DNA of 64,000 nucleotides from Fibrobacter sp. UWB4 (GTDB lineage: Bacteria; Fibrobacterota; Fibrobacteria; Fibrobacterales; Fibrobacteraceae): the NCBI RefSeq assembly GCF_002210345.1, contig NZ_MWQI01000001.1, forward strand, positions 1,054,001-1,118,000, written 5' to 3'. The translations under genes were made by a program, and so were the position numbers. The stretch's first letter is position 1. The number at the start of each line of letters is the position of its first letter. Positions 51,253 through 56,700 of this stretch are shown in pieces. Under the pieces are notes generated by a model. The model worked only from the letters and a program-made list of their open reading frames with translations, did no database searches and had not been told where the DNA came from.

Positions 51253-52728
51253 CTAACCACTCACCTGGCTTTCGCGGTATTCGCCGCCAAAGGCGTGTCC
51301 GCTCACCGAAAGAATCGGCGGGAACTGGATGCGCTTTGCCAAGGCAAGTCCCTTGAATCTACGGTACCAGAACCGCATGTCCTCAAGAGCGGCTTCGACC
51401 GACGGGAGATGAGCCTTGAAGTAGGCGGCATCCACACCAAGCGTTTCGCAGAGAGTCCCTTCCATCGCAAGCCTTTCGGTATGCGCAAGGCTTACACCCT
51501 TCTCGACCCACATCGCAAAGAGCTTGTCGTGGTACGGGTAAAGAATCGGGTCGCCCTTACCTTCATCGACATTCATCGCTTCAGATAGTTCCGCACTCGC
51601 CGGAATATCGATCGACGCCTTCGGGATGATTTCGGAATCTCGATTGATGTAACGGGCAAGCGCATAGACCTGCGTTTTCCACAAGTCGCCAAGTGCGCAC
51701 ATCACACCGCAAGTGTCGCCGTACAAAGTGCAGTAGCCGACCATCGCTTCGCTCTTGTTGCCATTGCAAGTCACGCCAGCGCCCACCACGGATGCCACCG
51801 TCGAAAGGATCGAAGCCGAGCGCGTCCTCGCCTGCAAGTTCTCGTGGTTGATCCCTGCAATTTTCATCACAGTGTCGTTGCGGACAAAGGAGCAACGTTC
51901 AAGCGTATGGCAGACAGATTCAATAATGTCAGAAATCGGGGCGACCATGTACGGCGTTCCGAGGTTCTCGGCCAAGTCACGAGCCGCATTCTTCGTCGTA
52001 TCCGAATTGAAGCGCGTCGGCATGTTCACGAGATACACATTCTGCGGTCCAATCGCTTCGGCATAAAGTGCTGCAGATACAGCGCTATCGATACCGCCAC
52101 TTGCGCCAATGACCATGCGCGAGATATGGAACATCTTCAAGTTCTCTCGGATCATGAAAACGAGCGCATCGTGAATCTCGGCGATTTCACTCGTGTACGG
52201 CTTTGATGATTCCGCATAAACTTGCACATTGCCATCGACAAATTCAACGACCGCCTCGGCCTCGCTAAAGAGAGGCATTTCAAAGACGATTCTTCCATCG
52301 CAGTCAAACACACGGCTGCCGCCAGCAAGCGCATAGATGTTCTTACCAGTATTGTCAGTCCCGACACCGTTCAGGCAAATGACCGGCATAGCGCAGTCCT
52401 TCGCCAAGTGCGACAGTTCCTTGTTTTCGGCTTCACGACGACCGATCACATAAAAGTCGCTGCCATGGGTCACATGAGCCACGTTCAAAAGCGGCGTATC
52501 GTCAAGCACGTCACCGCACAAGAAGAACGGCATGTTGCCCGCATACTTGCGGATCTCGGCCCAGTCTACAGGGAGAGCCTTATTCGAAGGCCCCGTCAAA
52601 GCATTTCGTGGAAACACAACGCAATCTACATCGGCAGCCTTAGCGCGGTCAAAAGCGGCCTTCATCGTTTGCATATTCGCCGAGACATTGCCCGGCAAAA
52701 TTTTCATCTGTACCACATAAAGTTTCAT
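51253..52728 (-). CDS. nadE: NAD+ synthetase with a degenerate glutaminase domain
   Basis: A 491-residue enzyme that amidates nicotinic acid adenine dinucleotide. The C-terminal synthetase has the P loop SGGIDS at 210-215 and the later VVGAGVTCNGNKSEAMVGYCTLYGD region. The N-terminal 175 residues resemble the nitrilase-type glutaminase of long NadE enzymes, but the catalytic Glu position reads FPRNALTG (R41 instead of Glu), and about 60 residues that should carry the catalytic Lys and Cys are missing between about residues 85 and 110. It therefore probably uses free ammonia. GAGG precedes the ATG. Confidence 0.88.
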   Translation of the reverse strand: MKLYVVQMKILPGNVSANMQTMKAAFDRAKAADVDCVVFPRNALTGPSNKALPVDWAEIRKYAGNMPFFLCGDVLDDTPLLNVAHVTHGSDFYVIGRREAENKELSHLAKDCAMPVICLNGVGTDNTGKNIYALAGGSRVFDCDGRIVFEMPLFSEAEAVVEFVDGNVQVYAESSKPYTSEIAEIHDALVFMIRENLKMFHISRMVIGASGGIDSAVSAALYAEAIGPQNVYLVNMPTRFNSDTTKNAARDLAENLGTPYMVAPISDIIESVCHTLERCSFVRNDTVMKIAGINHENLQARTRSASILSTVASVVGAGVTCNGNKSEAMVGYCTLYGDTCGVMCALGDLWKTQVYALARYINRDSEIIPKASIDIPASAELSEAMNVDEGKGDPILYPYHDKLFAMWVEKGVSLAHTERLAMEGTLCETLGVDAAYFKAHLPSVEAALEDMRFWYRRFKGLALAKRIQFPPILSVSGHAFGGEYRESQVSG

Positions 52729-52753
52729 TTTAATATCCTCTGCACTAGAAAAT

Positions 52754-52789
52754 AAAAAAATGCACCGCCCATGAGCGATGCAATTTTTT
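52754..52789. terminator. Bidirectional terminator of the Ser-linker lipoprotein
   Basis: A-run, TGCA-C-CGC-CCATGA-GCG-A-TGCA, T-run. It separates the lipoprotein gene (minus strand, ending at 52808) from the start of nadE. Confidence 0.75.
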
Positions 52790-55236: not shown

Positions 55237-56700
55237 CTAGGCTTCCAGCATATAACGGATATCTTGAACGCGCCTTGCGAGGGACGCATCCGTTTCCATC
55301 TGCTTTTTGAGGGAATTTATGGCGGCGATTACAGTGGCATAGTCCCTGCAGAACATCGCACCGATATTCTGGAGCGAATCGGTCGTGAGTTCGCGGCAAA
55401 GGAACATCGCCACCTTGCGGGGCATAGAAATCGCGGCAGACTGGCGCTTGGACGAAAGTTCACAGACTTCGACACGGTAATCCAGCGCAACTGCTTCAAT
55501 AATATTCTTGGCCGTGAGTTCCACATGGCCGCCGTGTTCCGACGGAGCCACGAGGCGCTTCACGCCATTCAAGTTCAAATCAGCCTTGCAGAACATGTTC
55601 ATCGCGCCGAGGAAATTCAGGAGACCTTCAATCAGGCGAACGTTCTTACGCGGCTGCATCGAAAGGTAACGGCAAATTTCTTCACGGTCAGCCTTTGCAA
55701 ACGGCAAGTCCTCGGACTTCTTGCTGATCAAGTTCATGCGGGTTGCAAGGTCCGGTTCGTCAATGCCCACAGCCACACAGGAGGCCAGCGGAGCAAGGAG
55801 CTTCTTGGAAATGCTCGGGATCGAAGACCTCGAAGAACCGCGGGATTCATTATCCGTATCGACCACCCTAAACAGGTTCGGATGGCGGTCGCAAGAAATC
55901 ACGACCTGCTTGCCTTCGGCGCGCAAATGCTTAATCAGGATAGCAAGGCGGTCCTGCGTCCAGAGGCCCTTTTCCAAGAGCTGCACATCGTCGAGCAAAA
56001 GCACATCGCAAAGCTCATAGCGTTCACGGAACTTTTCAGCAAGTTCGCGCACATTGCCCGTTTTGTTGTGGAGAGCCGACGCCATAGCCGTCGCATCACG
56101 CAAAAAGTCATAAGCATGGCAATAGACAATGGATGCTTCAGGGCGGCTCTTCTGGATTTTAGCGGCAATGGACTGCAACAAGTGCGTCTTGCCAAGACCG
56201 CTCTCGCCATAGACAAAAAGCGGATTCAAAGCCGGGTCGCCCGGATTTTCAGCAACCGCCTGGCAGGCGCGGAAAGCCGTGGAATTGCACTCCCCTTCAA
56301 CAAAGTTTTCAAAAGTGTAGCGGGCATAAAGAGCCAACGGCTGCTTCGGGCGCTTGACTTCGGCCTTCTTCTTCTCGGGACGCGGAATAACAGGCATCGT
56401 GAGCTTGATTTCGGGAATCGGGTCCGAAGGAGCAATTTGACGGATGCGGTAATCGACAAATTCACTACCAAATACAGCCGTAAAGGACTTGCGCAGCAAA
56501 TCGCCATAGTGGGAATTCACCCAGTTCTCGCGAAGCTCGTCGGGAACAGTGAGCAAGGCATAGCCATTGCACATTCCCTCATAACCAAGAGCGTCGAGAA
56601 TGACGGCACCAAAAAAGTCCTTACATTCCGAACGCACACGGTCGAGCACCTGTTGCCAGGGCGACGACGCAATATCCAACAAAGAAACAGTATTATCCAC
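55237..56700 (-). CDS. dnaA: Chromosomal replication initiator DnaA, divergent
   Basis: A 487-residue AAA+ initiator. Domain I (about 1-90) is weakly conserved; the AAA+ core has Walker A GESGLGKT (165-172) and Walker B LLLDD (234-238). The arginine-finger region, normally RLKSRF, reads KKLLAPLAS (299-307), so the finger Arg is missing, and a Ser-rich insert (DTDNESRGSSRSSIPS) precedes it. In domain IV, ISMPRKVAMFLCRELT is typical, but the base-reading motif RDHTT is RDYAT (452-456). It could be the replication initiator with altered DNA specificity, or a second DnaA-like regulator. The upstream 444-bp gap is AT-rich. Confidence 0.88.
   Translation of the reverse strand: MDNTVSLLDIASSPWQQVLDRVRSECKDFFGAVILDALGYEGMCNGYALLTVPDELRENWVNSHYGDLLRKSFTAVFGSEFVDYRIRQIAPSDPIPEIKLTMPVIPRPEKKKAEVKRPKQPLALYARYTFENFVEGECNSTAFRACQAVAENPGDPALNPLFVYGESGLGKTHLLQSIAAKIQKSRPEASIVYCHAYDFLRDATAMASALHNKTGNVRELAEKFRERYELCDVLLLDDVQLLEKGLWTQDRLAILIKHLRAEGKQVVISCDRHPNLFRVVDTDNESRGSSRSSIPSISKKLLAPLASCVAVGIDEPDLATRMNLISKKSEDLPFAKADREEICRYLSMQPRKNVRLIEGLLNFLGAMNMFCKADLNLNGVKRLVAPSEHGGHVELTAKNIIEAVALDYRVEVCELSSKRQSAAISMPRKVAMFLCRELTTDSLQNIGAMFCRDYATVIAAINSLKKQMETDASLARRVQDIRYMLEA

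Follow-up and report, generated by a model that had tools for sequence, protein, structure and literature searches.

A Fibrobacter NAD synthetase that probably uses free ammonia and keeps a catalytically dead remnant of its glutaminase domain

Results

A nadE-like gene with an eroded N-terminal glutaminase domain occupies positions 51253..52728 on the minus strand of the window, the whole 64,000-nucleotide stretch of Fibrobacter sp. UWB4 DNA analysed here, and was identified from its open reading frame and from Pfam, NCBIfam and PDB sequence and fold matches. The reading frame opens with an ATG start codon, with GAGG about 9 nt upstream, and specifies 491 amino acids. Residues 1–165 (52234..52728, minus strand) form a nitrilase-like glutaminase remnant, delimited by a VIA-align fold match and including a CN_hydrolase stretch at residues 5–64. 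Residues 181–491 (51256..52188, minus strand) comprise the synthetase (amidotransferase) domain and C-terminal tail, with the P-loop SGGIDS at 210–215, GNKSE at 323–327, the C-terminal KRxQxPP motif, and an NAD_synthase (PF02540) match at 188–413 (E 5.9e-41). Between nadE and the upstream lipoprotein gene, a GC-rich hairpin followed by a T run (window 52740–52785, minus strand) looks like an intrinsic terminator, so that nadE may have its own promoter. An ORF for a DnaA-like ATPase of 487 amino acids lies at window 55237–56700 on the minus strand, and the Fibrobacter genomes examined keep it in its place beside an SDR gene.

Profile scores place the protein securely among NAD synthases (PF02540, 140.6 bits, cut-off 21; TIGR00552, 121.3 bits, cut-off 63.65). 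The PF00795 score of 31.6 bits (cut-off 23.2) indicates a fused nitrilase-like N-terminal domain that is present only in part, the CN_hydrolase match being partial and weak with its best stretch confined to residues 5–64 (E 1.4e-7). The protein scores below the cut-offs of both PRK13981, the equivalog for the glutamine-dependent type F enzyme (NF010588; 216.8 bits versus 479), and PRK13980, that for the single-domain type N enzyme (NF010587; 139.3 bits versus 255), which is compatible with something between the fused and single-domain forms; the N-terminal remnant sets it apart from the latter. In an alignment of 33 sequences that includes dead and intact forms, the SGGxDS P-loop, GNKSE and DLWK motifs are invariant or nearly so, and the C-terminal KRxQxPP tail is invariant. 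These motifs and the PF02540 score agree with the original prediction, made from the sequence of this stretch, that the synthetase half is intact, and the motifs that it quoted are all present in the 491-residue protein.

The extent of the glutaminase lesion was defined against an intact orthologue of 607 amino acids from F. intestinalis ATCC 43854 (L095), whose catalytic triad is E41/K125/C173. Residues 1–85 of the window protein align with L095 residues 1–102, with small gaps, and residues 86–170 align with L095 residues 200–284. The segment missing at this junction (residues 85/86; 52471..52476, minus strand) is thus L095 103–199, which carries both Lys125 and Cys173, and the equivalent of E41 is Arg41, in FPRNALTG (codon 41; 52606..52608, minus strand; FPE to FPR). 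The Glu-Lys-Cys triad of type F enzymes is therefore absent at all three positions, just as was predicted when the domain was described as dead and shortened, with Arg for the Glu of FPE and with the region of the Lys and Cys deleted. About a dozen orthologues with 88–97% identity to the window protein likewise have Arg and lack the Lys and Cys. An assembly or sequencing artefact, which would make the lesion an error of the data, is refuted by these orthologues and by the recurrence of the missing segment, the Arg and the triad-less state in many separately assembled genomes; we reject it as having a negligible chance of being correct. The loss of the glutaminase catalytic segment is real and old.

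What is left of the domain is predicted still to fold. The AlphaFold2 model of the window protein has a mean pLDDT of 85.7 and a pTM of 0.88, with the remnant mostly at 84–95 and one weak spot at 71–80. By VIA-align, the whole chain matches the Streptomyces NadE 3n05 (Z 29.8, 427 residues, 2.9 Å) and residues 1–165 match amidases of the nitrilase superfamily (Z ~14, 157–158 residues, rmsd 2.2–2.3 Å). In the model of the intact control, residues 103–199 supply the helices between 136 and 150 and most of the strand (161–172) that runs up to the catalytic Cys. The main-text sections of De Ingeniis et al. (PMC3376133) describe an extended C-terminal loop as an interface with the glutaminase domain in fused NadE; together with the invariant KRxQxPP tail, this interface makes docking of the remnant on the synthetase plausible.

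The remnant is under purifying selection: its constraint is below that of an active glutaminase domain, yet it is clearly not drifting freely. In the window clade, dN/dS was 0.032 for the synthetase, 0.079 for the remnant and 0.123 for the linker, values obtained by the Nei-Gojobori method that are approximate, as dS is near 1. Divergence of the remnant relative to that of the synthetase was 2.6–3.7-fold in the dead Fibrobacter and Selenomonas clades, compared with 1.3–1.7-fold in intact ones; the Bacteroidales set gave 3.3 (median 1.9, four sequences). Selection of this strength, together with the fact that separate lineages have repeatedly kept an eroded domain and not shed it altogether, could mean that the remnant has acquired a new role such as allosteric control or partner docking, comparable to the glutaminase-like domain of carbamoyl-phosphate synthetase I, rather than being a structural leftover. 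We consider such a role unlikely, because divergence in the remnant is about threefold that in the synthetase and no new conserved site is evident, most of its conserved residues (P40, G46, K129, G136 and G145) being conserved in intact enzymes too. The suggestion that the old domain is kept as structure finds support in the purifying selection and in the confident predicted fold; conservation and a single-chain model are the evidence for this probable structural role.

Comparison among relatives places this lesion in a graded series. Short orthologues with the missing segment occur throughout the Fibrobacter-like genus of the window and in a sister family of its order (L032 and L033), so that the proposed search for the same deletion in other Fibrobacter found it across the genus. 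Every short orthologue of the genus has lost the Lys and Cys, and the Glu position is free to vary, with E, D, A, K, Q, S or R occurring there. Family f3 and other members of the phylum have full-length proteins that carry E, K and C. Within the Fibrobacteraceae, a scan of named genomes found intact E/K/C in F. intestinalis and three further loci (L092, L093 and L097); intact forms in F. intestinalis and a few others are 605–607 amino acids long. Intermediate triad states (EKS, EKG, D-G and E-A) were found as well: the Cys is replaced by Gly with the Lys kept in L098 and by Ser in L096, the Lys is gone in L099 and L101, and both Lys and Cys are gone with the Glu kept in L082 and L090, the window clade having Arg at that position. 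The L091 locus contains an in-frame stop.

Decayed forms also occur in several other anaerobic bacteria, the triad having been scored in Fibrobacterota, Selenomonadaceae and the nearest hits only. Selenomonas artemidis, S. flueggei, S. felix and two further Selenomonas have Ala for Glu and lack the segment with Lys and Cys, more decayed forms were found in Selenomonadaceae (L131, L174 and L192), and in rumen Bacteroidales the Cys is replaced. A NadE from a metagenome-assembled Clostridia genome (L121 4001–5839) has Lys for Glu and retains the Lys and Cys; this could reflect incipient decay or an error in the draft. Parsimony on a maximum-likelihood tree built from only the synthetase domain required seven changes between intact and dead states, at least five of them forced by well-supported branches, a count that gives no direction by itself and in which L121 was scored dead, an uncertain assignment for a draft metagenome-assembled genome. 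Because E/K/C is common to distant relatives and regain of deleted segments is unlikely, the direction is most simply loss, and the comparisons point to separate decay in Selenomonas, in rumen Bacteroidales and in a sister family.

Five of these Selenomonas genomes (S. artemidis, S. flueggei, S. felix, Selenomonas sp. F0473 and FOBRC6) yielded no convincing PF02540 NAD synthetase apart from the decayed protein, all other PF02540 matches being marginal. The Selenomonas loci L102, L116, L123, L127 and L128 come from genomes in which the sole NAD synthetase has, by an independent loss, none of the three glutaminase residues. Of 80 genomes of the window's genus, 46 encode both NadE types, 24 only the long type, 8 only the short type and 2 neither; one of the short-only genomes (G096) is a Fibrobacter genome that is 99% complete. 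Each type can thus be the sole NadE, as expected if both make NAD. In eight long-only genomes examined (L205–L212), the DnaA-like, SDR, lipoprotein and SlyD-like flanks are conserved and nadE is absent among them, which suggests loss of the gene from a fixed locus, or its later gain in others, and shows that the gene can be dispensed with where the long enzyme is available. These eight loci, and the 24 long-only genomes among the 78 with a NadE match, are what would be expected if the short gene were an inactive, decaying pseudogene tolerated as long as the long NadE does the work. This we reject as very improbable on the basis of the orthologue states and dN/dS: the frame is intact, the synthetase half has a dN/dS of 0.032 at dS ~1, the active-site motifs are invariant or nearly so, and genomes exist in which the short protein is the sole copy.

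The window's genome also encodes a glutamine-type NadE of 686 amino acids with intact FPE, K.HLP and CEDLW motifs. Its neighbourhood lies outside the window (L049 7260–12939; G000 contig C1, ~947–953 kb), where the long nadE comes one base after the gene for a NifA-like sigma54 activator and faces an amtB-glnK pair, as named by reading of the sequences; the NifA-like neighbour is kept in G024, and amtB-glnK is nearby in G013. Clustering of PII genes with nadE, and PII control of glutamine-type NadE, have been published (PMC7196632). The arrangement suggests that the second NadE may be under nitrogen-status control, and we infer a possible division of labour in which the long enzyme would serve at low ammonium and the short one at high ammonium. 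Because the long NadE has an intact triad, and because the genome also contains two stand-alone CN_hydrolase ORFs of ~300 amino acids, the short enzyme might still use glutamine in trans, by way of ammonia from the long NadE or from a free nitrilase-type subunit. This is quite improbable, as S. flueggei, F0473 and FOBRC6, in which the decayed NadE is the sole one, gave no CN_hydrolase (PF00795) match in a genome-wide search; among the neighbouring ORFs inspected for a partner glutaminase subunit, no CN_hydrolase gene adjoins the short nadE. Ammonia dependence of the short enzyme, by contrast, agrees with the loss of the triad and the existence of sole-copy genomes.

Comparison with intact relatives and with the sole-copy genomes argues for the proposed reversion to ammonia use in the case of the 491-residue enzyme, but the genome as a whole is not confined to ammonia, since the intact 686-residue NadE is present. 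The accompanying idea that abundant rumen ammonia fits or explains the loss is weak. Decay of this kind is found in Selenomonas species whose known habitat is the human mouth, while the glutaminase domain is intact in the ruminal S. ruminantium and S. bovis, and rumen ammonia is for this reason not favoured as a sufficient cause.

Discussion

The best account of the gene at this locus is that it encodes an ammonia-dependent NAD synthetase that retains a catalytically dead glutaminase remnant, a reading to which we assign a probability of roughly 0.85. The ancestor would have been a fused, glutamine-dependent NAD synthetase, of which the gene would encode a working descendant. A deletion took out the part of the glutaminase fold that bears the catalytic Lys and Cys, leaving the catalytic Glu free to change, as to Arg in the window protein. 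The enzyme very probably uses free ammonia, on the evidence of the lost triad and the sole-copy genomes, and would amidate deamido-NAD with dissolved ammonia. What is left of the glutaminase domain is predicted to fold and is retained, probably because it packs on the synthetase and supports stability or oligomerisation.

The family literature describes the gain of glutamine use by glutaminase fusion, whereas the forms seen here and in relatives can be arranged in a graded series that runs the other way, from the intact triad to point mutation of the Cys, deletion of the Lys/Cys segment and loss of the Glu, the tree requiring no fewer than five changes. With this natural series, the order of loss and the remaining use of a dead glutaminase domain become directly testable with natural proteins. 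The series also cautions annotation: genes called glutamine-dependent NadE by homology can lack a glutaminase active site. The main-text sections of De Ingeniis et al. (PMC3376133) treat the fused enzymes as glutamine-using, and no triad-less form is mentioned there. In the searchable open literature, outside of which most subscription journals lie, we found no description of an inactive or truncated glutaminase domain in an NAD synthetase, nor of a Fibrobacter NAD synthetase of this form.

Of the known systems, the nearest is the fused type F NadE (as described in the main-text sections of De Ingeniis et al. 2012, PMC3376133; PRK13981-like), which shares with the window enzyme its domain order, ancestry, synthetase domain and extended C-terminal tail. 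The window enzyme differs from it in lacking the Glu, Lys and Cys and in having a glutaminase domain shorter by about 100 residues. Like the single-domain type N NadE, it has no glutaminase active site and probably uses free ammonia, but type N has no N-terminal domain, while the window enzyme keeps the folded remnant and the C-terminal tail. Mammalian carbamoyl-phosphate synthetase I, a former glutamine amidotransferase that now uses ammonia, likewise still carries a glutaminase-like domain without activity. It is an unrelated enzyme with an unrelated class of glutaminase, and mainly the Cys is replaced there, whereas the catalytic segment is deleted in the window NadE; its allosteric role is, for the window remnant, at most a rival reading. 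We nevertheless tentatively raise the possibility, rather doubtful at present, that fused NAD synthetases have switched several times from glutamine to ammonia by glutaminase erosion and that the leftover domain has taken on a regulatory or assembly function, a bacterial parallel to how carbamoyl-phosphate synthetase I arose.
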